Assembly: GCA_017510065.1 (NCBI GenBank)
Contig: JAFWOB010000090.1
Location: forward strand, 1-32,546
Direction: 5' to 3'
Origin: Parasporobacterium sp.
GTDB taxonomy: Bacteria; Bacillota; Clostridia; Lachnospirales; Lachnospiraceae
Length of the DNA stretch: 32,546 bases
Shown here: positions 8,650 to 32,290 of the stretch, piece after piece
Layout of the letters: each line of letters begins with the position of its first letter
Numbering within the stretch: the stretch's first letter is position 1
The notes under the pieces: generated by a model
Seen by the model: only the letters and a program-made list of their open reading frames with translations
Told to the model about the DNA's origin: nothing
Databases searched by the model: none
Made by a program: the position numbers and the translations under genes

Positions 8650-10008
8650 ATGAATATCACAGAAAGAATCGATGCTTTGACAGAGGATATGATCAGGGAT
8701 CTTTCCACCCTGGTGCAGTATAATTCGGAACTGGGAGAGGAAAAGCCCGGGATGCCTTTCGGGGAAGGCCCGGCGCTTGCTTTGAAAGAAGCACTTTCTA
8801 TTGCGCAGAGAATGGGATTTGAAACTAAAAACCTGGATAATTACTGCGGATATGCGCAGATCGGATCCGGAGAAGAGATCATCGGAATCGTAGCGCATCT
8901 GGATATCGTACCTGCGGGCGAAGGCTGGGAAACGGATCCTTTCTGCATGACAAGGATCGGTGATACACTGTACGGAAGAGGCGTATCCGATGATAAAGGG
9001 GCAGCTGTCGCATCTCTTTATACCCTGAAGCTTCTGGAAGAGTCCGGCATCCTGCTCAATAAGCGGGTCCGTCTGATCTTCGGCTGCAACGAAGAGACCG
9101 GCTCCAAGTGTATGGCACATTACAATGAGGTGGAAGAAAAGGTGACAGCAGGATTTACCCCTGATGGGGAATTCCCAGGGATCCATGGAGAAAAGGGAAT
9201 GCTGAAAATGACTGCCTACAGTAAAAACACCCGTATTCTCTCCATGAACGGCGGATTTGTCAGCAACGCCGTCTGCAACCGCTGTACCACCCAGGTGCCT
9301 GCGGATGCTGTCAACAAAGAAAAACTGGAAAATGCCCTGAAAGAAACCGGTCTTCCGGAATACACCGTCACGGAGGAAAACGGCGTCCTTACGATCTATG
9401 CACAGGGTGTGGCTGCCCATGCCAGCACGCCGCTGCTGGGCATCAATGCTGCCGGCTGCACCATGAAAGCGCTGGCACAGGCGGGTATGAAGGATGATTT
9501 TGTAGAATACTATAATTCCCATATCGGGACTGCCTGTGACGGGGAAGGATACGGACTGAAGATCCGGGACGATTACGGAGAACTGACGCTGAACAACGGC
9601 ATCGTAAAGACGCAGGACGGGAACATCAGCTGCACGATCGATATCCGGGTTCCGGTGACCTTCGGGGAGGAACAGCTCCGCAGCATGGCTGAACCGTATC
9701 TGGAGGATGAAAAGGGAAGGACAGAGATCAATGCGATCGTAGGATCCCTGTTCTATCCGGAAGATTCACCGCTGGTAACAGCTCTGTACAATGCGTATGT
9801 GGAAGTAACGGGAGATACGACTGTAAAGCCTATGGTGATCGGCGGCGGAACCTATGCCAAATCCATTCCCGGGATCATTGCCTTCGGCTGCCAGTGGCTG
9901 GGAACAGACAATCATATCCACGATGCCAACGAAAAGCTGGAGATCGCAGAACTGAAAAAACAGGTGGAGATCTATATTCAGGCAGTGAAAAATCTGCTGG
10001 CTATGTGA
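8650..10008 (+). CDS. pepV: PepV/Sapep-type M20 metallodipeptidase
   Basis: This encodes a 452-residue protein with an AGAGGATGG site before ATG 8650. Zinc-site motifs of the M20 family are all visible: VAHLDIVPAGEGWETDPF (His, Asp), GRGVSDDKGAAV (bridging Asp), FGCNEETGSKCM (catalytic Glu and metal Glu), TPDGEFPGIHGEKG (Asp), and GTDNHIHDANE near the end (His). The order and spacing fit the PepV/Sapep dipeptidases, cytoplasmic enzymes that cleave unblocked dipeptides. The gene ends the operon of the amino acid importer, consistent with peptide or amino acid salvage. No clear terminator follows before 10050. Confidence 0.9.
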   Translation: MNITERIDALTEDMIRDLSTLVQYNSELGEEKPGMPFGEGPALALKEALSIAQRMGFETKNLDNYCGYAQIGSGEEIIGIVAHLDIVPAGEGWETDPFCMTRIGDTLYGRGVSDDKGAAVASLYTLKLLEESGILLNKRVRLIFGCNEETGSKCMAHYNEVEEKVTAGFTPDGEFPGIHGEKGMLKMTAYSKNTRILSMNGGFVSNAVCNRCTTQVPADAVNKEKLENALKETGLPEYTVTEENGVLTIYAQGVAAHASTPLLGINAAGCTMKALAQAGMKDDFVEYYNSHIGTACDGEGYGLKIRDDYGELTLNNGIVKTQDGNISCTIDIRVPVTFGEEQLRSMAEPYLEDEKGRTEINAIVGSLFYPEDSPLVTALYNAYVEVTGDTTVKPMVIGGGTYAKSIPGIIAFGCQWLGTDNHIHDANEKLEIAELKKQVEIYIQAVKNLLAM

Positions 10009-10049: not shown

Positions 10050-10078
10050 TTGAAGTTTCCTGCCTGGTGTGACATAAT
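10050..10078 (+). promoter_or_regulatory. Promoter for the Zorya-like cassette
   Basis: TTGAAG (10050-10055), a 17-base spacer and CATAAT (10073-10078) lie 78 bases upstream of the first motor gene. They suggest the cassette is transcribed on its own rather than only by read-through from the dipeptidase operon. Confidence 0.45.
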
Positions 10079-10155: not shown

Positions 10156-11778
10156 ATGAAAAAGAAAAACTATAATTTCTGGCTGGTCATTACCTATCTT
10201 ATCATGGCAGTCGTCTGCGCTGTCCTGATCGTGGTGTCCAGACAGAGTCTGACCAGTATCATTATCAATATCGTGATGTTCCTGCTTGTCGCGATCATTT
10301 TCGGATTTGCGATCACCAAATTCACGATCGGATGGAACATACAGAAAGCTCTGTCTGCCGCGACCGCGAAGATCAGATCGGATGCCAGGTCAGACCGCAG
10401 GTATCTTTGGGATCAGTATAAGAAGGAATCCTCCGGAGGATTGTTCCAGGATGATATCCTGACTCCCCAGTACAAAAAATTCCTTGCAGAGATGAAGCGG
10501 CTCGAGCAGTTTAAAAATGCCGACTACAAGTGTGACATCGAAGACTACATCAACAAGGAATATGTTGATGCCCGCATGAAGAAGAACATTCTGAACCTGG
10601 TTTCCGGGACTATGACAGGTCTTGGTATCCTGGGAACGTTTGTCGGCCTGTCCTTTGGCCTTCAGTTCTTCAATACAGGTACTTCGGAAGAGATCACGAA
10701 CAGTATTGCGCCTCTGATGGACGGCATCAAGGTGGCGTTCCATACCTCTGTGTACGGTCTGGTCTTTTCCCTGGTCTACAGCTTCGTATACAAAGCATCC
10801 ATGGAAGCGGTCTATGTGCAGCTGGATGAGTTCCTGAGTACATTTAACACCTATGTTCTCGGGGATTCCGTCAATGACAATGAGAGCACCATGCGTGAAA
10901 TGCTGCAGGCGCTTCCCGATACCCTGGGCGACAATATCAGCGCGCATATCAGCGAGAGCCTGACACCCATCGTTTACAACATGAACAAGACCATGATGGA
11001 TTTTGCCCAGAATATCGCGCAGAACCAGTCGGAAGGCCTGCAGGGTCTTGTGGATGAGTTTGTGGATAAACTGAACAGTTCCATGGGCAATACCTACGGT
11101 ATGCTCGGCCGTGTCCTGAATGATACTGTAGAGATCCAGAGGCAGAACAATGCCTATGCTCAGACCATCATGGACAAACTCAATTCCGTTACGGTCAATG
11201 TCAACGAGATCAATACGCTGTCTGCCAATATCATAGGCAGTATGGCAGGCTATATCAGCGAGATCGAAAAATTGCAGAACCTGATCACGGAGAATTACGA
11301 CAGTACCTACAGGCAGATGGAAACCCTGAAAGAGCACGAAGAGCGTATGCAGGGTTATGTCTATGCCATCTCCGCGCATGAAAAAGAAGTCAACGATTCT
11401 ATCAAGCAGGAACTCAGCGAGATCATCAAGATGTCCGGTGCTTTCTCCGGCGAGATCCAGAGCACTTCCCAGAAGCTTACCAGCATGCTGACGATGGCTC
11501 ATACGGATATCGATACCGCCGCACAGGAACTGGCTGCCGCATCTACCGGGCTGGATGAAAGACTTACCAGATCCGTCACCGAAACCTTCAATCTGTTTGA
11601 CACCAATATGGCACAGATCACCCAGTCGCTCAATGAGACAGTATCGCGTATTGATGAGACGACCCAGCGGGTACCGGAAGTGGTCCTTGCGGCATATGAC
11701 GGCATGAAGAAGTCCTTTGATGAGATACAGGTACAGATGAATGAACTGGTGAAAAGCCTCGGCAATATCAGCAACTGA
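10156..11778 (+). CDS. zorA: ZorA-like MotA/ExbB-family proton channel with long coiled-coil tail
   Basis: This encodes a 540-residue protein with a GGAG site eight bases before ATG 10156. Two N-terminal membrane spans (about residues 9-28 and 33-54) are followed by a ~90-residue cytoplasmic part, then a third span with GTMTGLGILGTFVGLSFGL (about 150-172) and a fourth with AFHTSVYGLVFSLVYSF (about 195-217). These two spans hold the MotA/TolQ/ExbB pore signature. Residues ~220-540 form an extended helical tail rich in Gln, Asn, Ser and Glu with heptad-like spacing. Such a tail is characteristic of ZorA of the Zorya anti-phage system, where ZorA5ZorB2 acts as a proton-driven rotary motor. It is followed by a ZorB-like gene 22 bases downstream. 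The alternative is an uncharacterised stator unrelated to defence. Confidence 0.82.
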   Translation: MKKKNYNFWLVITYLIMAVVCAVLIVVSRQSLTSIIINIVMFLLVAIIFGFAITKFTIGWNIQKALSAATAKIRSDARSDRRYLWDQYKKESSGGLFQDDILTPQYKKFLAEMKRLEQFKNADYKCDIEDYINKEYVDARMKKNILNLVSGTMTGLGILGTFVGLSFGLQFFNTGTSEEITNSIAPLMDGIKVAFHTSVYGLVFSLVYSFVYKASMEAVYVQLDEFLSTFNTYVLGDSVNDNESTMREMLQALPDTLGDNISAHISESLTPIVYNMNKTMMDFAQNIAQNQSEGLQGLVDEFVDKLNSSMGNTYGMLGRVLNDTVEIQRQNNAYAQTIMDKLNSVTVNVNEINTLSANIIGSMAGYISEIEKLQNLITENYDSTYRQMETLKEHEERMQGYVYAISAHEKEVNDSIKQELSEIIKMSGAFSGEIQSTSQKLTSMLTMAHTDIDTAAQELAAASTGLDERLTRSVTETFNLFDTNMAQITQSLNETVSRIDETTQRVPEVVLAAYDGMKKSFDEIQVQMNELVKSLGNISN

Positions 11779-11800
11779 AAGTGATTAATGAGGATAAAAC

Positions 11801-12820
11801 GTGAAAATACGCAGAAAAAGAAGAAAATCTGAAGATGAAGAAACTTCCTATTGGCTGTCGTACTCAGATATGATGGCCGGGCTTCTGCTGGTATTTGTGC
11901 TTGTTATTTCCTTTACGATCCTTCAGGCAAAAGCCCAATATGAAGCAAAAGAGGAGGAACTTGCGCAGCAGGCCCTGATCATTTTCTCCCAACAGGAAGA
12001 GCTGACGGATAAAGAATCCCAGCTGGAGGACCAGCAGAGTCAGCTCGATGAAGCGCAGAGTCTTCTGGAGGAACAGCAGGGAGAGCTCGATGAAGCCCAG
12101 AGCCTTCTGGAGGAACAGCAGGGAGAACTGGAAGAGCAGAAATCAGCTGTGGAAGTGCTGAAAGAACTCCTGGCCAATCAGGAAGCCCTTCTGGCAGAGA
12201 AGGAAGCTCTTGTGGGCGAGCAGCAGCAGGCGCTGGAAGAACAACAGGAACAGCTTGACCGGATCATCGGCGTCAAGACCGATCTGATCGAAGCTCTGAA
12301 AACGGAATTTGAAAGCACCAATCTCAGCGTTTCCGTAGATTCCAAAACAGGCGCGATCACGCTGGATTCCAGCATCCTGTTTGAGTCGGATGAATACGAC
12401 CTGTCCGAAGCAGGACAGGATTTCCTGGTGCAGTTTCTCCCGATCTATCTGAATGTCCTTCTGAGTCCGGAATTCAGCGACTATGTGTCGGAGATCATTA
12501 TCGAGGGCCATACCGATACGGATGGTACTTATATGCACAACCTGGAGCTGTCACAGCAAAGAGCCCTGGCAGTTGCCACATTCTGCCTGTCTGATGAAAA
12601 CGATTTTCTGGCGCCGCAGACTCTTGCTTCGCTCCGGAATATCGTAACAGCCAACGGACGTTCCTTCAGTGATCCGGTCTACGGTCCAAATGGCCAGATT
12701 GATATGGATGCGTCCAGACGTGTTGAGTTCAAGTTCAGACTGAACGATGAGGATATGGTCCAGGAGATGATCGATATCCTAAGTGAGGATCTGACACAAG
12801 GTCAGGAAACCACGGATTGA
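11801..12820 (+). CDS. zorB: ZorB-like OmpA/MotB stator protein
   Basis: This encodes a 339-residue protein starting at a GTG (11801) with GAGGAT upstream. A basic N-terminus (RRKRRKSEDEE) leads into one membrane span, SYWLSYSDMMAGLLLVFVL, in which Asp23 is at the place of the proton-carrying Asp of MotB/ZorB. Residues ~45-155 are a Glu/Gln-rich coiled coil with 14-residue repeats. The C-terminal OmpA-like domain (about 160-325) has EGHTDTDGTYMHNLELSQQRA, split here as EGHTDTDG and NLELSQQRA, with His237 and Asp239 for peptidoglycan contact. The protein would anchor the ZorA channel to the cell wall. In a monoderm cell the long coiled coil may bridge the distance to the thick wall. Confidence 0.82.
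   Translation: MKIRRKRRKSEDEETSYWLSYSDMMAGLLLVFVLVISFTILQAKAQYEAKEEELAQQALIIFSQQEELTDKESQLEDQQSQLDEAQSLLEEQQGELDEAQSLLEEQQGELEEQKSAVEVLKELLANQEALLAEKEALVGEQQQALEEQQEQLDRIIGVKTDLIEALKTEFESTNLSVSVDSKTGAITLDSSILFESDEYDLSEAGQDFLVQFLPIYLNVLLSPEFSDYVSEIIIEGHTDTDGTYMHNLELSQQRALAVATFCLSDENDFLAPQTLASLRNIVTANGRSFSDPVYGPNGQIDMDASRRVEFKFRLNDEDMVQEMIDILSEDLTQGQETTD
12041..12124 (+). repeat. Two 42-bp tandem repeats in the ZorB-like coiled coil
   Basis: Two in-frame copies (12041-12082 and 12083-12124) encode a 14-residue block around LDEAQSLLEEQQG. A degenerate copy lies before them. Fourteen residues are exactly two heptads, so unit gain or loss would change coiled-coil length without breaking its register. 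Confidence 0.8.
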
Positions 12821-12827
12821 TCAGAAC

Positions 12828-14018
12828 ATGCCGCAGGAATACATTTATATACCGGAAAATATCATAGAAGCGAGAAAGAAGATCGTGCCGGCCAACCGTC
12901 AGAAGAAGAAGGACGGTTTTGCAGCGACGGAAGAACTGGAGCAGTTCGTAGGAAAACTGAACGGTTATTCCGCAGATATGCTGAAAGCTGCGGCGCTGTC
13001 TCTTTCGGCCGAAGAGGTGGATACCCTGGCAGGGTATCTGCCTTACAATTACTATGCCGTTTCTCAGAAAAAACTCTTTGGGATCCTGAGATACCGTCTG
13101 GATGACCGCTCCATCAGGGTACTGTTCCGGCAGTGGCAGGAAGAATTCAACAATCCGGAATGCAATGCGTTCCTGAAGGAAATGGCTCTTTCAGAGGGGC
13201 CGTTTCAAAGGCTTCTGCAAAAATGTCATATCCGGGGCGATGTATTTGCCGGGATCCTTGACAGCGGACAGATTCCGATCGGTTACGATGAACAGCTGAT
13301 CGGCGGTAAATATTCCAACGGTGAGGATTTTGAAAAGAGGCTTCGCTATTTCGGCGTGGCACAGGGAAGTTACCTGGATATTGAATGTAAAAGAGCGCTC
13401 CTGACTTTCTGCGGAAAAACGGAGTATTTCAGCTGCAGTCAGGACAATCTCCTGGATATTTTAAGAACCTATGACCGTTTTATGCTCCGCAAGTTCGTGC
13501 TGAACTTCATGGACAAGCTGAGCCTTAGCGAACTGCAGGCTTATCCTGCTCTGGCATCCTATCTTCGCCAGGTTATCGGTCATCGTAATTCCCGTACGTT
13601 CAAAGCGTTCTTTGAGGGCGTTCCGGAAAAAGAAGTACAGAAATACATTGACTGGATCCATATCTACAAGATCAACAGTTACTTCAGGGAGGATGTCCGC
13701 AGCAGGTTCTGGAAACAGTTCCGTTACCAGAACGTACTGCGATATCCCCTGAGCGATGTGGTGGTAATGGAATTTGAAACCTGCGTAGCGGTGGAATTTC
13801 TGGGGGAGAAGCCCGGAACGATCTATCTGTGCGAAAAAGAGAAGTTTACGACTTATTTTTATGATAAACTGGATGCCATGGATAATGAAGACCTGCAGGA
13901 CTATTTCAAGCTCCATAAAGACCAGTGCATCGAGTACCGAAATCATACCGGAAGGTGGCAGTCTCATATCAGCAGTCTGCTGATCCGGCGCAGGCTTGCT
14001 GAAAAAATAAAGATCTGA
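12828..14018 (+). CDS. Third gene of the Zorya-like cassette; C-terminus resembles EH_signature (ZorC-like)
   Basis: This encodes a 396-residue soluble protein with no signal peptide or membrane span. It starts seven bases after the ZorB stop with only a weak ribosome site, so coupling is likely. The first ~290 residues are predicted to be mostly helical (for example KLNGYSADMLKAAALSLSAE is followed by an LPYNYY turn). The C-terminal ~110 residues contain RSRFWKQF (Trp295), an Asp/Glu-bearing strand region with EFLGEKPGTIYL, and YRNHTGRWQSHI (His373, Trp377). This FW...E...H-W pattern resembles the EH_signature domain of ZorC, the DNA-associated Zorya subunit. No helicase, HNH or other nuclease motif was found. 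Assignment as a ZorC-like effector or sensor is inference. Confidence 0.6.
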   Translation: MPQEYIYIPENIIEARKKIVPANRQKKKDGFAATEELEQFVGKLNGYSADMLKAAALSLSAEEVDTLAGYLPYNYYAVSQKKLFGILRYRLDDRSIRVLFRQWQEEFNNPECNAFLKEMALSEGPFQRLLQKCHIRGDVFAGILDSGQIPIGYDEQLIGGKYSNGEDFEKRLRYFGVAQGSYLDIECKRALLTFCGKTEYFSCSQDNLLDILRTYDRFMLRKFVLNFMDKLSLSELQAYPALASYLRQVIGHRNSRTFKAFFEGVPEKEVQKYIDWIHIYKINSYFREDVRSRFWKQFRYQNVLRYPLSDVVVMEFETCVAVEFLGEKPGTIYLCEKEKFTTYFYDKLDAMDNEDLQDYFKLHKDQCIEYRNHTGRWQSHISSLLIRRRLAEKIKI

Positions 14019-14087: not shown

Positions 14088-14645
14088 ATGGCTAAATTTA
14101 CCGGGTGGAAAAAACGGTATTCATATCTGGATGATTATAAGAAAGGGATCGACGGAAAATACGTCTATTACGGACGTCACTATATATTCTGTGGAGACAG
14201 CCGGGAACTTAGGATATACAAATGGACCCTGGGCATCACGGATATCCTGCTGACAGCGCTGTTTGTGATCGGCGGGCTCATGGATGGAGGAGCCATCTGG
14301 AGGGCATGGTATGTGGTGATACCCTTTGCCCTGGAGGTAGTGGCGCTCTTCATGCTGATCTGGAAGAGTTTTTCTCTGCTCCTGGAAAAGATTCCTGTTA
14401 AGGCTTATATGTACAAAAGAACGGTTCCCTGGTTCAAACCCTTAGCCTGGATCCTGATCATCATCTGTCTGCTGTCGCTGATCGCGACGCTGGTCTGCAT
14501 GCTGGTCCTTCCCGGGGAAATTAAGACACAGGGCAGCATCCTTTATATGGTGATCAAGTTTTTATCTGCTGCGGTAGCCGGGGCCTTTTTGTGGCGGATC
14601 GGGAAGAGCAGATGGGAACTGGATCCTTCTGAGGAAATGAAATAA
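14088..14645 (+). CDS. Small membrane protein of unknown function
   Basis: This encodes a 185-residue protein starting at ATG 14088 with AAGGAG upstream. The first ~48 residues are polar and aromatic (KKRYSYLDDYKKGIDGKYVYYGRHY). Four hydrophobic segments follow at about 50-65, 72-92, 112-135 and 145-165, ending in RIGKSRWELDPSEEMK. I do not recognise a family. The stop touches the ABC-F start, so the two genes share a transcript, which could mean a joint function or simple operon packing. Confidence 0.75.
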   Translation: MAKFTGWKKRYSYLDDYKKGIDGKYVYYGRHYIFCGDSRELRIYKWTLGITDILLTALFVIGGLMDGGAIWRAWYVVIPFALEVVALFMLIWKSFSLLLEKIPVKAYMYKRTVPWFKPLAWILIIICLLSLIATLVCMLVLPGEIKTQGSILYMVIKFLSAAVAGAFLWRIGKSRWELDPSEEMK

Positions 14646-16652
14646 ATGAGATTACAGATACGAAATGCAGATGTCGAGTTCGGTGCGGACAGGATCCTGG
14701 AGCACGTGAATTTTGAGATCCACGACCGGGAGAAGATTGCTGTCGTCGGACGAAACGGCTGCGGAAAAACGACACTTCTGAAACTGATCTCAGGAGATAT
14801 TGAACCTTCCAATCCCCGCGGGGATGAGAACTTTTCCATGATCCTGGCAGGCGGCCAGCACATCGGTTTCCTGCGGCAGATCAATTTTACAGATACTCAG
14901 ATTTCAGCGGGAGATGAGATCCGCAAGGTCTTTGCCCGCCTCTATGACTGTGAGCGCAGAATGCTGGAGATAGAAGCCAGCCTGACGCAGCTGCCCGGAG
15001 ATTCCGGGGAGGCTTTAAAGCTCCTTAAAGAATACGACTCTCTCCAGAAAAAATATGATGCCATGGGCGGACATGACAGCGAGCGGGAAATGGAGATCAT
15101 GTTCCATCAGTTCGGATTCTCTCCGGAAGACCTGCTGCGTCCGATGGGCAGCTTCTCCGGTGGTCAGCAGACGAAGATCGCATTTATCAAACTTCTTTTG
15201 AGCAAACCCGATATCCTGCTTCTGGATGAGCCCACGAACCATCTGGACCTGCCCGCCATTGAGTGGCTGGAGGGGTATCTGCGGACCTATCCGAAAGCGG
15301 TAGTGGTAGTTTCCCATGACCGGGTTTTCCTGGACAATGTGGTATCGGTTACCTATGAGATCGAATACCACCGGATCAAACGCTATGCCGGCAATTACAC
15401 GGCTTTCGTTGCACAGAAAGAGGAAGCCCTGGCCAAGCAGGAGAAAGATTATGAAGCCCAGCAAAAAGAGATTCGTCGTCTGACAGAATGGATCGAGAAA
15501 TGGAAGAACACCCCGACTAAAGTTTCCGCGGCGCATTCCAAGGAACGGGCGATCGAGCATATGGTACTGGTGGAAAAGCCGAGGAGATTTGATACCACCA
15601 CATTTAAAGCACATTTTTCACCAAGGATCTCCAGCTATTCGGAAGTCCTGGACGTACGGAAACTGTCGATAGGATATGACCATGAATTGAGCTGCGTCAC
15701 ATTCCGACTGATGCGGGGCGAGCGGCTGGCGATCGTCGGTGAAAACGGCAAAGGGAAATCCACCCTTCTGAAGACCCTGATGGGCATGGTCCCGGCTCTC
15801 GGAGGTACATTCAAAATCGGAACCAATGTGGAAATCGGATACTATGACCAGCAGAAGGCCGTGATCAATGACGAAGATCCGGAACAGACGATCCTTGACA
15901 ATTTCTGGGATACCTACCCCCGCCTGACCAATGAAGAGGTAAGGAGTACCCTGGGTGCTTTCGCTTTTTCCCAGGAAGAGGTGGAGAAGAAGCTGGGACA
16001 GCTTTCCGGAGGAGAACGGGTCCGGCTGGCACTTTGTAAAATGTTTTACACGCGGCCGAATTTCCTGATTTTGGATGAGCCGACGAATCATATGGATATC
16101 CTGGGCAAAGAATCCCTGGAAAAAATGCTGAAGGCATATGAAGGGACTGTCCTGTTCGTCTCTCATGACCGGTATTTCATCAACCAGATCGCAACAGCCG
16201 TACTGAATATCGGGGAACAGGAAGCAAACAGTGCCTATGAGGCATTTGAGGTAGAGAAGATCGCCGGCGGATCCGCAGCCAGGCCTTCCATTGCCGGGAC
16301 AGGAACAGCATTGCCGGGCGGAAAGGCAGGAAACGGCAGCTTTGTGTCAGGCCAGCCGGCTTCAGGCAAAGCGGAAACATCAGCGGAAGGATCCAGGGCT
16401 GTTTATAACAACCCGGGTAAGATCAGATCCAGGCTGGAGCGTCGAATCGAGAAACTCCAGCAAAACCTGGCAGATTCAGAAGAACTGACCAGGCAGCTGA
16501 AAGAGAAACAGGCAGATCCCTCGATGTCTGCAGACTATGAAAAACTCATGTCTATACAGACCCAGCTGGAGGAAGCAGAGGCAGAGCAGGAAGAACTGCT
16601 GATGCAGATCCTGGAAGCGGAAGAAGAACTGGAAAGCCTGAATAATGTGTGA
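14646..16652 (+). CDS. ABC-F family ATPase (ribosome-associated)
   Basis: This encodes a 668-residue protein with two nucleotide-binding domains and no membrane span. The first domain has VGRNGCGKTTLL (Walker A, residues 35-43), FSGGQQTKIAF and ILLLDEPTNHLD; the second has GENGKGKSTLL (from residue 365), LSGGERVRLAL and FLILDEPTNHMD. Between them lies the helical ABC-F linker. After residue ~530 comes a Gly/Ala/Ser-rich linker, then a ~90-residue Glu/Gln-rich coiled coil. This fits ABC-F proteins that act in the ribosomal exit site as translation factors or as antibiotic protection proteins. No subfamily (for example EttA, Uup, Vga or CplR) can be fixed by eye. Start ATG 14646 follows the upstream stop without a gap. 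Confidence 0.9.
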   Translation: MRLQIRNADVEFGADRILEHVNFEIHDREKIAVVGRNGCGKTTLLKLISGDIEPSNPRGDENFSMILAGGQHIGFLRQINFTDTQISAGDEIRKVFARLYDCERRMLEIEASLTQLPGDSGEALKLLKEYDSLQKKYDAMGGHDSEREMEIMFHQFGFSPEDLLRPMGSFSGGQQTKIAFIKLLLSKPDILLLDEPTNHLDLPAIEWLEGYLRTYPKAVVVVSHDRVFLDNVVSVTYEIEYHRIKRYAGNYTAFVAQKEEALAKQEKDYEAQQKEIRRLTEWIEKWKNTPTKVSAAHSKERAIEHMVLVEKPRRFDTTTFKAHFSPRISSYSEVLDVRKLSIGYDHELSCVTFRLMRGERLAIVGENGKGKSTLLKTLMGMVPALGGTFKIGTNVEIGYYDQQKAVINDEDPEQTILDNFWDTYPRLTNEEVRSTLGAFAFSQEEVEKKLGQLSGGERVRLALCKMFYTRPNFLILDEPTNHMDILGKESLEKMLKAYEGTVLFVSHDRYFINQIATAVLNIGEQEANSAYEAFEVEKIAGGSAARPSIAGTGTALPGGKAGNGSFVSGQPASGKAETSAEGSRAVYNNPGKIRSRLERRIEKLQQNLADSEELTRQLKEKQADPSMSADYEKLMSIQTQLEEAEAEQEELLMQILEAEEELESLNNV

Positions 16653-17254: not shown

Positions 17255-18622
17255 ATGAAGAAAAGCTTAGTAGTACTTCTGGCTGTGTGCGTTGCAGCAG
17301 CAATGCTTCTCAGCGCTTGTGGGGAGAAGAAAGCAGATCCGAAACCGGAAGAGGTGGTTTCAACCGTAGTTGAGGAAGTCTCCGAAGCAGCAGAAGAAGT
17401 CGTCGAAGAAGCATCCGAAGCAGTGGAAGAAGCTGCAGAGGAAGTCTCTGAAGCGGCAGAGGAAGTTGTCGAAGAAGCATCCGAAGCAGTGGAAGAAGCT
17501 GCAGAGGAAGTCTCTGAAGCGGCAGAGGAAGTTGTCGAAGAAGCATCCGAGGCTGTAGAAGAAGCAGCAGAGGAAGTTTCTGAAGCAGCCGGAGAAGTTA
17601 CGGAAGAAGTTTCCGAAGCTGTGGAAGAAGTAGTGGAAGATGCCAAAGAGGCAGCTGAAGGTGCTGAAGAAGCCGTCGAAGAAGGCAAAGAAGCGGTAGA
17701 AGAAGCCGCAGAGGAAGTCTCGGAAGCAGCCGAAGAAGCCGTCGAAGAGGTTGTTGAAGGTGCTGAAGAAGCCGTCGAAGAGGCTGTTGAAGGTGCTGAA
17801 GAAGCTGTCGAAGAAGGCAAAGAAGCGGTAGAAGAAGCCGTCGAAGAGGCAGCTGAAATAGTGGAAGCAGCCGCACAGGAAGTGACGGTTACCTTCTCTA
17901 CAGGGGAAACGGCAACCGCGATCGTTGGCGAACCGTTTGAATTCTTCTTCCAGTGTGATGCACCTGGAGACATGGGCGCACCGGAAGAAGGAGCAGAAGG
18001 AGCAGGCATCACGGTTTCCAGTGGAGAAGTTGCATATGACAATGTTTCTCTTGGCGGACCGTTCAGCTATCCGACCAGTGAGAAAGTTATCGTAACCGGA
18101 TTTGAAGGTGACTTTGAGGTTACAGTAGCAGAAGAAGCTACCCAGATGGATGCAACTCATACGATCTATTTCACACCGGAAGAGATTGAAGAAGCTGTAA
18201 AGAATGCTGAAGAAATGGCAGCTTCCAGACCGGACAGCGGAGAAGGCGAATCACCGGAAGGCGAGTCACCGGAGGGTGAATCACCGGAAGGTGAAGCTCC
18301 TGCATCCGAAGAAGGTCAGGCTCCGGAAGGTGAATCACCGGCTCCTCCGGCAGAAGGCGAATCACCGGAAGGCGAAGCTCCTGCAGCTGAAGAAATCGCA
18401 GCACCGGAAAGCGAGAGCCCACAGACTGCATATCATTCAGTGATCCAGGATATCCTGAATGGTATCAAGGATAAAGCGGAGACACCGGCTGAAGACGCTT
18501 CCGCACTGGAAGAGGTCAAGGATGCTGTTGAGACGATCGTCAATGAGATCACTTCATCCGATGAAGCGCAGGGTACGATCAGAAGCTTCCTGGGTGGTAT
18601 CCTGGGCAAGATCCAGCCGTAA
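17255..18622 (+). CDS. Acidic repeat lipoprotein of unknown function
   Basis: This encodes a 455-residue protein; ATG 17255 follows AAGAAGGGAATG. A signal peptide ends in the lipobox LLSAC, so the mature protein should be lipid-anchored outside the cell. Residues ~35-205 are a continuous Glu/Ala/Val helix built from 11- and 22-residue units such as EEVSEAAEEVVEE, with almost no basic residues; Lys occurs in only a few copies. A ~110-residue part with beta character follows (VTVTFSTGETATAIVGEPF, then VIVTGFEGDFEVTVAEEA). Next is a linker of GESPEGE repeats and a helical end (LEEVKDAVETIVNEI). The long acidic helix could act as a stalk through the wall or as a cation-binding surface. It shares its linker with the next gene. 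Confidence 0.75.
   Translation: MKKSLVVLLAVCVAAAMLLSACGEKKADPKPEEVVSTVVEEVSEAAEEVVEEASEAVEEAAEEVSEAAEEVVEEASEAVEEAAEEVSEAAEEVVEEASEAVEEAAEEVSEAAGEVTEEVSEAVEEVVEDAKEAAEGAEEAVEEGKEAVEEAAEEVSEAAEEAVEEVVEGAEEAVEEAVEGAEEAVEEGKEAVEEAVEEAAEIVEAAAQEVTVTFSTGETATAIVGEPFEFFFQCDAPGDMGAPEEGAEGAGITVSSGEVAYDNVSLGGPFSYPTSEKVIVTGFEGDFEVTVAEEATQMDATHTIYFTPEEIEEAVKNAEEMAASRPDSGEGESPEGESPEGESPEGEAPASEEGQAPEGESPAPPAEGESPEGEAPAAEEIAAPESESPQTAYHSVIQDILNGIKDKAETPAEDASALEEVKDAVETIVNEITSSDEAQGTIRSFLGGILGKIQP
17396..17593 (+). repeat. Three 66-bp in-frame tandem repeats
   Basis: Copies begin at 17396, 17462 and 17528. The first two differ at one position, the third is more diverged. Each encodes 22 residues of the Glu/Ala/Val helix (VVEEASEAVEEAAEEVSEAA pattern), and further degenerate units extend to about 17870. 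The near identity suggests recent duplication. Confidence 0.85.
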
Positions 18623-18716
18623 CTGTTTTGTTACAAATTAAAGGGTTTTACCAATTGAACAGGCGATATTTGTAGATAGAATAAGCCTTGATCAGTTAGA
18701 GCCCAGTCAATGCAAG

Positions 18717-18725
18717 TGCTATAAT
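18717..18725 (+). promoter_or_regulatory. Extended -10 promoter overlapping a hairpin
   Basis: TGCTATAAT (18717-18725) is an extended -10 element 57 bases before the gene at 18782. Its last two bases are also the first two of the hairpin arm at 18724, so initiation would start inside that arm. Confidence 0.45.
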
Positions 18726-18765
18726 ACAGATGTGAGATCAAAAGGATTTCACATCTGTATTTTTT
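18724..18765 (+). terminator. Terminator-like hairpin directly before a ribosome site
   Basis: A perfect twelve-base stem (18724-18735 with 18749-18760, ATACAGATGTGA arm), thirteen-base loop and six T residues ending at 18765. It would terminate transcripts from the lipoprotein gene, and lies only three bases before the AGGAGGG site (18769-18775) of the next gene. Confidence 0.75.
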
Positions 18766-18781
18766 GATAGGAGGGAAGAAA

Positions 18782-20431
18782 ATGAAAAAACTATTGGCAG
18801 TATTTATCAGCCTTGTTATGGTCGTTACAATGGCCGCCTCTGTATTTGCAGAGCCGGCGGAAGTAACCTGGGAAGATTATCAGCAGTATCTGATTGATAC
18901 AGCCGGCGCAAATGCTCCTGACCTTGCAGAGTTTACCGCTCAGGTTGAGGCAATCGGAAGCTGGGAAGAGATCGATCAGACTGTATCACCATGGGATCAG
19001 TTCTTTACAACGCTTGGACTTTCCACATGGGAAGAGTTTCAGGCAGGTGAAGTGAAGGAACTGGCGGTTATGGGCGCTATGGGAGGCGCCGGCGGTGAGT
19101 CTCCGGAAGGCGAATCTCCGGAAGGTGAGTCCCCGGAAGGTGAAGCCCCGGCAGCTCCGGAAGGTGAAGCTCCGGCAGCTCCGGAAGGTGAATCCGAAGG
19201 TGAATCCGGAGAATCCGCTCCGAGCGAATTCGAAGGTGTGGAGTATCCGACCTATGATATTGATTTTACACCGTACTCTTCTGAAAACGACTATACTGTT
19301 TACGATGTCAGAATGACAATGCAGGCCGGATATCAGGAATATAAAACCTATGAACCGGGTATGATGACGATCCATGCCGGAATCGGTTACATGGATCCCT
19401 TCGGAGAAGGTTTCTATGTTGCAGGAATCATGTATCCGGAATCATTCGTTGCTCCGGAAGCAACCTATGTATCTGACTGGATGGATGCCAATTATGGCTG
19501 CAGCCTGTTCTGCATCTATCATACCAATGTGGGTGATATTTATGCCTGGGATGGTATTTACGGCGCAAATTCCAAAGATATGTCCAACTATATGTCCGGC
19601 GATGACGGTTATACATCAGATGAGGTTGATGGTACCGTTCCGAAGAGAGGCGATGCCCTTGTCAACATTGTGACCGGCGGAACCGGAATGTTCAAAGGTG
19701 CCTATGGTGTGCTGATCGGATGTACCTCCGGCGGCGGCTTTTATGGTACTCAGGGTGGAATGACTCTTCCGCAGACATTGTTCAAATTCATGGAAGGTTA
19801 TATTGTCGTTCCGGATGAATGCGAAACGGCGACCTTATATCCTGTATCTCAGGAACTCTCTGAAGAGCATTCTGAACTGGAAGTACGCAGCACTGAGTAT
19901 GCGATGGTTCCTGTGACACTGCGTATGCAGGCAGGATCCCTGGAAGAAGACCAGAAACCGGGCAGCGGTATCGGAACCATGCCTCCGTTCTTCGAAGGCG
20001 GACTGACAGTGGATTATGAAGATTGCCCGGCTGCAGCGGATTATGATGTTCATAATTATGTAAACGACAACTGGCTGGCAGCTTACGGTGAGCCAGAGTT
20101 TATGACATTCCACATTAACGATGGCGTTGTAGCGGGTGATGTCTATGCCTACAAGTTCTCCTATGGAACAATTCTGGACAGCACCAGCGAACTGGCACAG
20201 ACCGGTACGGAAGAAGCGGTGTTCATTCTTATGATCGACGGAACGGATGATTTCGCAGGCATCACCGGTATGCTGGGCGGATATGATGTGACTGTTGATC
20301 CGGAAGGATGGGGAATCGCAGAATATGCAAACGATCTTCCGTTATCTCATCAGACATGGGCAGAAGGCTATATGAAGGTTCCGGCAGACAGCCCGGCAGC
20401 TGCATATGGCAATACCCCGATTATGGATTGA
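18782..20431 (+). CDS. Secreted protein with GESPEGE linker, unknown function
   Basis: This encodes a 549-residue protein. ATG 18782 is chosen over an upstream in-frame ATG because AGGAGGG lies six bases before it and it begins a signal peptide (MKKLLAVFISLVMVVTM, cleaved after SVFA). No lipobox or sortase signal is visible, so it is probably released. Residues ~25-105 form a small Trp-rich helical domain (two WEE/WED motifs), followed by a GESPEGE/EAPAAPEGE linker. The rest is beta-rich and contains GGTGMFKGAYGVLIG, a pattern seen in allene oxide cyclase/dirigent-like barrels, and a second related stretch near DDFAGITGMLGG. This resemblance is weak. It is paired with the preceding lipoprotein, which has the same linker. 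Confidence 0.7.
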   Translation: MKKLLAVFISLVMVVTMAASVFAEPAEVTWEDYQQYLIDTAGANAPDLAEFTAQVEAIGSWEEIDQTVSPWDQFFTTLGLSTWEEFQAGEVKELAVMGAMGGAGGESPEGESPEGESPEGEAPAAPEGEAPAAPEGESEGESGESAPSEFEGVEYPTYDIDFTPYSSENDYTVYDVRMTMQAGYQEYKTYEPGMMTIHAGIGYMDPFGEGFYVAGIMYPESFVAPEATYVSDWMDANYGCSLFCIYHTNVGDIYAWDGIYGANSKDMSNYMSGDDGYTSDEVDGTVPKRGDALVNIVTGGTGMFKGAYGVLIGCTSGGGFYGTQGGMTLPQTLFKFMEGYIVVPDECETATLYPVSQELSEEHSELEVRSTEYAMVPVTLRMQAGSLEEDQKPGSGIGTMPPFFEGGLTVDYEDCPAAADYDVHNYVNDNWLAAYGEPEFMTFHINDGVVAGDVYAYKFSYGTILDSTSELAQTGTEEAVFILMIDGTDDFAGITGMLGGYDVTVDPEGWGIAEYANDLPLSHQTWAEGYMKVPADSPAAAYGNTPIMD

Positions 20432-30457: not shown

Positions 30458-32290
30458 ATGAGGAGAAAAAGAGACCGATCAGGCAGTGTAGCATTGGCAG
30501 CGACAACAATTGTGATAATACTGATAGGTGTTTCACTTTTTTCGATCTATTCGTTGTCAAAAAGCGGAAATGGCACACCCGCAAATGCTGAAGCTGCCGG
30601 AACCGAACGTGCCATGGATGCAAAAGTGCTGAGCAATGCTGATGAAGCTGCAGCAGAAGCAGCCGAGAGTGAGGCGCCGGAAGAAAACAGACAGGCTGGT
30701 ACTTCCAGGCAGTCAGGGGATAATCCCCTGAGGATCACAGGAGTGATCGATCTTGGCAGCCGGGGACCGGCACCGGACCTTCAGGTATCTGAAAGCAAGG
30801 AGCCGGTGCAGGACACGGAACCTGCGGTGAGTGCAGAACCGGAAACGGAAGCACAGGCAGCAGAAGAACCTGTTTATATACCGCCGGTGGTCGAGCCGCC
30901 TGTACGGGAAGAGGTTGTCAAGGAAGAACCTGTCATCCAGGAACCGGTCTATGAGGAACTGGCGTACGATGAGGCATTTTATGAGGAGCCGGAGATGGCA
31001 GCCTATGAAGAACCGGCTGTCGAATCGGAAGAGCTCAGCGATTATTATTCTGCAGCACAGGAGTATGCGGCAACACAGCTGAATTATTCATATGCGGAAC
31101 CGATCGACTGGGAGTTTACGGAAGAAGATGCGGAAGAAGTGATCGAACCTGACTACGCGTACGCACAGGAATATGAAGAAGTTCTGCCGCAGGAGGACAG
31201 TTATCAGGAAGAAGAATCCTGGAACGACGACAGTGTCTGGGAAGAAGAATCCTGGAGTGACGACAGCGTCTGGGAAGAAGAATCCTGGAGTGATGACAGC
31301 ACCTGGGAGGAAGAGTCCTGGAGCGACGACAGCGTCTGGGATGAAGAATCTCAGGAGGAAATTTACTCGGAAGAAGAGCCACAGCTTTTCAGCAGTTATT
31401 GGGATACATCCCTGTATGATATCTGGGATGATGAAAACGGTACCTGGATCTTCGACCGAAACACGGGAGAGACCTTCAATGCTCTGACTGGCCCGTCCGG
31501 AAACTATACAGCTCCGGCCGACGAAGAAGACTACAGCTATGAGACTTACAACTATGAGACTTATGAAGAGCCGGAAGAGTACGAAGAGTCCTATGAGACT
31601 TATGAAGAGCCGGAAGAGTACGAAGAGTCCTATGAGACTTATGAAGAGCCGGAAGAGTATTATACGGAAGAGTATGAGTCAGAATCCGGTTCCTACTGGG
31701 ACGATTCCAGATACGATGTCTGGGCGGATGATGTTGGCGTATGGGTATTCGACCGTGAAACAGGAGAACTGTTCAATGCAGAAACAGGTCCGGATCCGAA
31801 TTACGGGACGGAACCTGCTTCGGAAGAAACCTATGACGACTCAGAGGAGTATGATTCAGAGGAGTACGACGAGGAGTATTACTCGGAAGACTACGACGAG
31901 GATTACTACGAGGAAGAAGAAACCTATTATTCTCTGGGCCAGCAGATCGTGGATTACGCAATGGGCTTTGTAGGAGTTACCCCGTATGTATGGGGCGGCA
32001 ATTCGCTTTACGGCGGCACCGACTGTTCCGGATTTGTACATCTGATCTTCGCAAATTTCGGAATCTACTGCTCCCATGCGTCACTTGATTATACCGGTGG
32101 AAGCTTTGGCTACCGCATCAGTTTTGACGAACTTCAGCCGGGCGACATCGTGGTATACGGCGGAGGAGACCATGTGGCGATCTATGCCGGAAACGGCTAT
32201 GTGGTTCACTGCTCCAGCCCTGAAAACGGAACCGTTTACTGGGATATGAACTACAGATCCGATATGAGCTGGTTCTTAAGAGTATTGTAA
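30458..32290 (+). CDS. Membrane-anchored NlpC/P60 cell wall hydrolase with acidic-aromatic repeats
   Basis: This encodes a 610-residue protein; GAGG lies upstream of ATG 30458. A basic N-terminus (MRRKRDRSG) and one membrane span (about 10-32) orient the rest outside. Residues ~45-500 are very acidic and Tyr/Trp-rich with three repeat sets: four 11-residue EESWSDDSVWE units, about three 13-residue YETYEEPEEYEES units, and two copies of a ~35-residue block (YDIWDDENGTWIFDRNTGE and YDVWADDVGVWVFDRETGE). The C-terminal ~115 residues are an NlpC/P60 domain: YVWGGNSLYGGTDCSGF with catalytic Cys523, GGGDHVAIY with His572 and VVHCSS with His584. It should cleave peptide bonds in peptidoglycan stem peptides. 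The repeat region probably spans or binds the wall. Confidence 0.85.
   Translation: MRRKRDRSGSVALAATTIVIILIGVSLFSIYSLSKSGNGTPANAEAAGTERAMDAKVLSNADEAAAEAAESEAPEENRQAGTSRQSGDNPLRITGVIDLGSRGPAPDLQVSESKEPVQDTEPAVSAEPETEAQAAEEPVYIPPVVEPPVREEVVKEEPVIQEPVYEELAYDEAFYEEPEMAAYEEPAVESEELSDYYSAAQEYAATQLNYSYAEPIDWEFTEEDAEEVIEPDYAYAQEYEEVLPQEDSYQEEESWNDDSVWEEESWSDDSVWEEESWSDDSTWEEESWSDDSVWDEESQEEIYSEEEPQLFSSYWDTSLYDIWDDENGTWIFDRNTGETFNALTGPSGNYTAPADEEDYSYETYNYETYEEPEEYEESYETYEEPEEYEESYETYEEPEEYYTEEYESESGSYWDDSRYDVWADDVGVWVFDRETGELFNAETGPDPNYGTEPASEETYDDSEEYDSEEYDEEYYSEDYDEDYYEEEETYYSLGQQIVDYAMGFVGVTPYVWGGNSLYGGTDCSGFVHLIFANFGIYCSHASLDYTGGSFGYRISFDELQPGDIVVYGGGDHVAIYAGNGYVVHCSSPENGTVYWDMNYRSDMSWFLRVL
31211..31342 (+). 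repeat. Four 33-bp tandem repeats
   Basis: Units begin at 31211, 31244, 31277 and 31310 and encode the 11-residue EESWSDDSVWE motif. Differences are mostly silent or conservative, which suggests selection on the protein pattern after duplication. Confidence 0.85.
31553..31660 (+). repeat. Nearly three 39-bp tandem repeats
   Basis: Copies start at 31553, 31592 and 31631; the first two are identical and the third breaks off after 30 bases. They encode YETYEEPEEYEES. The identity points to very recent duplication or active length variation. Confidence 0.88.

Follow-up and report, generated by a model that had tools for sequence, protein, structure and literature searches.

The closest described systems to the locus studied here are the Zorya defence systems, which share a ZorAB core. 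In PMC11890865, ZorAB is described as a 5:2 ion motor in which ZorB binds peptidoglycan and for which both the tail and ion flow are required; in Serratia Zorya I, protection was lost on removing any component, with ZorABC among the constructs. Type I carries ZorC and ZorD (an SNF2 helicase with nuclease), type II the HNH nuclease ZorE, and type III ZorF (DUF3348) and ZorG (DUF2894) (PMC11890865 and PMC8565338); further statements on the Zorya types were drawn from PMC12904381 and PMC12939059. In this work we analyzed a stretch of 32,546 nucleotides (the window), contig JAFWOB010000090.1 of the Parasporobacterium sp. assembly GCA_017510065.1 (3.47 Mb, 242 contigs, 90% complete), in which three open reading frames in series at 10156-14018 encode ZorA, ZorB and a third protein (C) that we read as a divergent ZorC. 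The cassette shares with Zorya type I the gene order, ZorA being followed by ZorB and then by a ZorC homologue, as well as the ion-path Asp, the OmpA domain, the long ZorA tail and the EH-core residues, but it differs in that no ZorD stands beside ZorC. Thus, three of the type I components were found by sequence and an adjacent ZorD, which was looked for, was not; for this reason we do not file the cassette in Zorya I and consider it, to judge from its sequence, a helicase-free ZorABC variant. Literature searches, which covered open-licence papers in PubMed Central, listed none with a title or abstract opening on a natural ZorABC lacking ZorD. It also departs from type I in its motor, which falls in another branch of the joint tree presented below, and in its ZorC, which lies beyond the reach of Pfam and PADLOC.

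Both motor proteins were recognized by several libraries. ZorA matched the Pfam family MotA_ExbB at residues 118-223 (E-value 5.6e-08), the PADLOC model ZorA1 (1.7e-23) and chain 8vvn_C of the Protein Data Bank (PDB; 1.1e-14), whereas ZorB matched MotB_plug and OmpA in Pfam, the PADLOC model ZorB1 PDLC00609 (4.7e-78) and PDB 8qyd_F (1e-18). The NCBIfam Zorya models also matched both proteins, all under their cut-offs (96.3 bits for ZorB1, against a cut-off of 400). When aligned with the Klebsiella proteins, the Asp of SYSDMMAG in ZorB coincides with that of SYADLMTA, the OmpA-type motif NLELSQQRA finds its counterpart, and the membrane helices of ZorA, with their Ser/Thr residues, align as well, so that the first-pass annotation of this DNA, which had described a MotA/ExbB-type channel with a tail of about 320 residues and an OmpA/MotB stator with a membrane Asp, proved right on both proteins. 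As far as alignments can tell, the ion-path and peptidoglycan-binding motifs of the pair are intact. One further difference from type I concerns the stalk: from the membrane Asp to the peptidoglycan motif EGHTD the window ZorB spans 211 residues, 69-100 more than the 111-142 found in six helicase-linked systems.

The identity of C depends on more sensitive comparisons. When C was scanned singly, no Pfam, PADLOC or NCBIfam model matched it usefully; searches of genome contigs, viral contigs and plasmids were equally fruitless, and its best E-value against the PDB was 0.26. Klebsiella ZorC matches the solved ZorC structure 8r68 over residues 1-560 of 560. The Pfam family EH_Signature (PF15611) does match the relatives L075-L078, and it matched neither C (E up to 1) nor its counterparts in two related loci, L085 and L086 (E up to 0.05); a search of the own genome with PF15611, run without a positive control, found nothing. 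We do not take the silence of Pfam and PADLOC as disproof, since profile and pairwise tests recover ZorC. A model built from six ZorCs of helicase-linked systems, with the window type left out, matched C at 3.8e-12 and its L085 counterpart at 1.2e-12 among 1432 proteins, and Klebsiella ZorC at 1.8e-13. The reverse model (window, L085 and L086) matched L062 (1.9e-14), L078 (1.3e-06), L076 (2.4e-06) and L082 (0.0054); L077 (0.59) and L081 (4.1) did not rise above noise, and neither L075 nor Klebsiella ZorC was listed. Profile-profile comparison with hhalign gave a probability of 97.9 and a score of 100.5, against a maximum of 26.1 over 40 column shuffles; earlier comparisons with small alignments had been weak to fair (probability 87 and E 3.8e-06; 58 and 1e-04 for the window protein alone). 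By BLASTP, C aligned over most of its length with the ZorC of the helicase-bearing system L076 (8e-08, 21% identity) and over about 100 N-terminal residues alone with L078 (2e-04). Another candidate relative, L003, was taken for a chance match.

Furthermore, all 10 aligned relatives carry R291, W295, E323, H373 and W377 without exception, and M1, P9, L67 and F286 are likewise invariant. ZorC reportedly binds DNA, and its E and H are said, in work attributed to Hu et al. in 2025, to be needed for defence. The EH_signature-like C-terminus that had been read from W295, EFLGEKPG (323-330), H373 and W377 is thereby upheld, while the check proposed for it gave a divided answer: PF15611 and PADLOC were silent, and the six-ZorC model and the profile comparison, well above its shuffles, spoke for ZorC. 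By these comparisons C is a divergent relative of ZorC and EH_signature proteins.

As for the missing partner, 14 of the 27 listed frames of the window were run through PADLOC (E up to 1, or up to 1e-8) and 7 through Pfam. Among the 14 proteins PADLOC found no ZorC, ZorD, ZorE or ZorF/ZorG match, in agreement with the earlier claim that no helicase or HNH gene follows the third gene; the cassette thus differs from types II and III, whose ZorE was unmatched among these 14 and whose ZorF and ZorG were unmatched both there and among the 7 run through Pfam, although it shares the ZorAB core with them. No ZorD adjoins ZorC in the window, L085 or L086. It could be argued that this is a Zorya I with its ZorD gene at another site, or with an unlinked host nuclease in place of ZorD, given that Zorya I needs ZorD along with ZorC (PMC11890865). 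However, searching the own genome (90% complete) with a Bacillota ZorD, in a run that had no positive control, gave no match, and we regard this explanation as very unlikely.

In genome draws, ZorC genes beside ZorB were found in 4 of 249 genomes of the phylum (with PF15611) and in 2 of 341 of the class (with alignment A3; the count sets the own genome apart), and ZorD follows ZorC in all six. This contrast with the window is what one would expect if the cassette were a decayed Zorya I that has lost ZorD and is drifting away. The conservation of the three genes weakens that reading: they are intact in three genomes at 45-84% identity, with nonsynonymous divergence (dN) well below synonymous divergence (dS) where computable, and the joint tree sets the motor lineage apart from the helicase-linked systems. 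Decay is therefore hardly probable. Loci L075, L076, L077, L078, L081 and L082 are Zorya I loci (A, B, C, D) with short ZorCs of 391-468 amino acids; in L082, neither ZorA nor ZorD seems complete.

Judged by ZorB, the named relatives closest to the window are the two loci L085 and L086, from Parasporobacterium metagenome assemblies (Bacillota, Lachnospiraceae), 85 and 61% identical; the window genome is probably also a metagenome assembly. Compared with L085 and L086, respectively, the window proteins are 82 and 63% (A), 84 and 63% (B) and 60 and 45% (C) identical. For C, the window/L085 pair showed a dN of 0.29, 2.5 times that of A and B, and a dS of about 3, near saturation; for several of the L086 pairs no dS could be computed. 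As to the survey that had been proposed for related genomes, both loci keep the three genes at the same site with no ZorD beside ZorC, and within this genus of Bacillota zorA-zorB-zorC is conserved as a unit. In a survey of 14 genomes of the genus, ZorC was found in three and ZorB in the same three (L085 and L086 presumably correspond to survey genomes G970 and G976, by position match). Of the 14, only six reach 90% completeness with no more than 5% contamination, two of them with ZorBC, so that the absences are soft. The M20 peptidase gene in G219 is surrounded by other genes, with no empty site readable.

L085 and L086 both run from an M20 peptidase through a secreted-looking protein, zorA-zorB-zorC, a second secreted-looking protein and a 185-amino-acid membrane protein to an ABC-F ATPase, L086 having in addition an M3 peptidase between zorC and the membrane protein gene. 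The window shows this order minus both secreted-looking genes and the M3 peptidase. The first secreted-looking protein (L085:5561-6223, L086:1102-1800; 220-232 amino acids) has a conserved Cys (GxCWxFA) and His (NRHSLIL), for which a papain-type fold is a guess, and occurs in two of the 14 genus genomes, both with ZorABC. The second (684 and 764 amino acids; L085:10265-12319, L086:5744-8038) lies just 3' of zorC, has a sub-threshold PG_binding_1 match and is also present in G969, where neither ZorB nor ZorC was found. Neither was found in the window genome (90% complete) and in L085 both lie outside the span from promoter to hairpin, for which reasons we rejected them as constant parts of the unit.

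In a search of the family, PDLC00609 matched in 24 of 397 genomes, the own one included, with E-values of 3.6e-53 or lower, and a second search kept, from the named genomes, the top 80 of 271 loci; adjacent ZorAB pairs were called in 94 loci, 88 of them distinct. Most are orphan pairs of Lachnospiraceae (among L034-L056 and L087-L164), whose likeness to the window motor lies in the sequence (48-54% identity in ZorB for six of them), in the long stalk and in the ZorA tail tip, and which differ from it in that no ZorC was called beside them and no constant third gene appeared among the scanned neighbours. The Asp-to-motif distance is 170-280 residues in 87 distinct pairs of the lineage, the window included. 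The tail tip had been considered special to ZorC-bearing motors, an idea we discarded because orphan ZorAs carry it too. The neighbour tables cover 67 downstream genes (window C included) and 54 upstream genes, of which the first 25 families each were considered; among these the scanned neighbours are mostly ordinary genes. Downstream, no Zorya model of PADLOC matched at 1e-5, the matches being to mad3, mad8, PDC-M43B and a CARF fusion with one or two members per model, and Pfam gave an epimerase (10/67), a histidine kinase (6/67) and a Na+/H+ antiporter (4/67; 12/54 upstream).

In the joint ZorA and ZorB tree of 39 rows (supports as Shimodaira-Hasegawa-like approximate likelihood ratio test/ultrafast bootstrap), the window, L085 and L086 form a clade (99.8/100) that is sister to 11 orphan pairs (97.9/99), all together at 100/100, and the orphan lineage is split from the helicase-linked systems at 87.4/98. 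By this tree the motor nests in a helicase-free ZorAB lineage of Lachnospiraceae. It has probably gained ZorC, one gain being simpler by parsimony than many losses.

Beyond the genus, the protein closest to C is encoded at L062:3255-4451 (clade 99.9/100 in a tree of 11 rows). This gene overlaps by one base that of a 363-amino-acid protein without channel domain (both at L062:3255-5542). The end of that protein is similar to the ZorA tail tip (1.7e-6, where the best of the shuffled tails reached 0.011; NCBIfam ZorA tail, 1.6e-06), and the pair lies directly 5' of pilB, pilT and pilC. The pair is like the cassette in its ZorC-like protein and in a partner like the tail tip, and unlike it in having no MotA-type channel and no ZorB called in the 12 kb covered.

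These observations bear on the possibility that the cassette is a domesticated envelope motor without a role in defence, used for wall sensing, force or ion-dependent signalling, in which ZorC would have become a cytoplasmic regulator within the genus. The nesting among orphan pairs with mostly ordinary neighbours, the long ZorB stalk and the tail tip shared with motors that have no ZorC, the flanking Cys/His and PG_binding_1-like secreted proteins of L085 and L086, and the tail-only partner ahead of pilus genes at L062 all point in this direction. On the other hand, ZorC has retained the EH core, and the unit is patchy (3/14) with a fast-evolving C. Immunity genes are often patchy and fast-evolving. 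The flanking proteins, for their part, are not constant in the genus, as described above, and a genome lacking ZorABC has one of them as well. We see the envelope motor as a serious contender, somewhat short of even odds.

The reading that we favour, to which we give a probability of about 0.48, is that the cassette encodes a self-contained three-gene ZorABC machine, in which ZorC would be the only encoded output, as there is no ZorD. Five ZorA and two ZorB subunits would form an ion-driven motor; upon a breach of wall or membrane, such as the entry of phage DNA, ZorB would grip peptidoglycan through its long stalk, ions would flow and ZorA would turn together with its cytoplasmic tail. The moving tail may then engage ZorC, which could act at the entry site by holding DNA, through its EH core, or by handing over to a host enzyme. 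By analogy with the described motor, the sensor would be the peptidoglycan-binding domain of ZorB and not ZorC, for which a double role of sensor and effector had been suggested. We give a breach response, probably anti-phage, a slight edge over a role that is purely structural.

Several results weigh against this self-contained machine. The Serratia ZorABC without ZorD gives no protection (PMC11890865). ZorC was called beside only 3 of the 88 distinct ZorAB pairs and beside none of the other 85. The separate ZorA and ZorB trees, made without L085 and L086, are weaker on the position of the window: the ZorA tree groups it with six orphans at 88/87 (bootstrap first), and the ZorB tree gives it no resolved place, with long-branched Zorya rows among the orphans. 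The six-ZorC model did not list L086 or L062, and in the window neither a second Zorya gene nor a clear defence island was found by PADLOC among 10 further proteins. Finally, C is less basic (isoelectric point 8.2; 6.1 in L085 and 7.1 in L086) than five of six helicase-linked ZorCs of Bacillota (9.1-9.7). We do not count this low charge against DNA binding, since the isoelectric points of known ZorCs overlap, those of L076 (7.05), Klebsiella (8.1) and Nostoc (6.8) not exceeding that of C; charge therefore decides nothing.

The "minimal Zorya" of the first-pass annotation is thus retained in part: a ZorC relative does belong to a conserved Bacillota unit with no helicase or nuclease beside it, but the motor comes from a helicase-free lineage with mostly ordinary neighbours, and the Serratia precedent is unprotective. 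A ZorABC without helicase-nuclease means either that defence can run without ZorD or that the motor serves another use, and a natural ZorC-bearing unit of this kind makes the solo role of ZorC testable. The orphan lineage suggests that Zorya motors exist also outside defence. A tentative wider view, which we hold as possible rather than probable, is that a helicase-free Zorya type with ZorC as sole effector arose from within a large ZorAB motor family that monoderm gut bacteria have outside defence. On this view Zorya motors would be envelope machines of general use, and what docks at the ZorA tail (ZorC alone, ZorCD, ZorE or nothing known) would determine their output.

The features of the locus are collected in Table 1. 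The gaps between the genes are 22 (A-B) and 7 bases (B-C), which agrees with the tight order first described, and the next genes are, as had been noted, a membrane protein and an ABC-F. The membrane protein gave no useful family match in Pfam, PADLOC or NCBIfam. The flanks are well conserved, the M20 peptidase being 78.8% identical to that of L085 and 73.6% to that of L086 over 363 residues, and the ABC-F 78.5 and 77.3%.

Table 1. Features of the zorABC locus and its flanks in the window
Feature	Position	Strand	Basis and remarks
M20 peptidase (outside the unit)	8650..10008	+	Pfam PF01546, 4.6e-26; left flank common to L085/L086
Promoter-like site TTGAAG-17-CATAAT, TG ahead of second hexamer	10050..10078	+	Consensus match alone
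zorA, 540 amino acids	10156..11778	+	MotA/ExbB channel, helical tail of ~317 residues; Pfam, PADLOC, PDB 8vvn_C
zorB, 339 amino acids, GTG start	11801..12820	+	Membrane Asp23, long coiled-coil stalk, OmpA peptidoglycan-binding domain
Divergent zorC, 396 amino acids, EH_signature type	12828..14018	+	R291, W295, E323, H373, W377
Intrinsic-terminator-like hairpin, begins at zorC stop codon	14016..14042	+	Sequence scan
Membrane protein, 185 amino acids, 3' of hairpin	14088..14645	+	Kept in L085/L086
ABC-F ATPase, neighbour	14646..16652	+	Right flank common to L085/L086

A promoter-like site (TTGAAG, TTGCAA or TTGAAA, 17 bases, CATAAT) occurs at the same position 5' of zorA in the window, L085 and L086. 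Such sites were not clearly commoner than in shuffles in any of three scans, so that the weight rests on the position common to the three loci. A hairpin followed by T's was seen 3' of zorC in L085, where the terminator scan did not list it, and none was seen 3' of zorC in L086.

Among the orphan pairs, the Na+/H+ antiporter gene (PF03553) adjoins ZorAB in several genomes (e.g., L045:6920-8533), which are partly related and not independent, and at L036:68-3054 a PilM-like protein gene lies 20 bases after an orphan ZorB. In L034, the sole pair tested besides the window, PDLC00609 gave 1.2e-76, against 1.3e-44 for other ZorB models. As this model fits an orphan so much better, counts of Zorya based on ZorB only may be inflated, and the ZorB models of defence finders may count non-defence motors as Zorya. 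ZorB-like OmpA domains were also seen within larger proteins (L057-L061; 505-952 amino acids), with no adjacent ZorA called, and in the last protein of a four-gene row on two Paracoccus plasmids (L073:4158-8462 and L074:4158-8498), whose first three genes are annotated as hypothetical.

In the rest of the window, PADLOC matched three of the 10 further proteins: a WYL regulator (1.6e-33), the ABC-F (mad3, 6.3e-54, probably a general ABC-ATPase match) and a Glu/Ala-rich protein (ZorA tail), all of which we took as general-family or composition matches. The last one, at 17255-18622, was discarded as a second ZorA despite a ZorA tail match of 9.7e-11, since it is a Glu/Ala-rich repeat protein and the match probably reflects composition. 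This lipoprotein-like gene and its neighbour (17255-20431) both carry GESPEGESPEG repeats. Finally, as read from its sequence, 30458-32290 encodes a protein that looks secreted, carries EESWSDDSVWEE-type repeats and ends in an NlpC/P60-like region.

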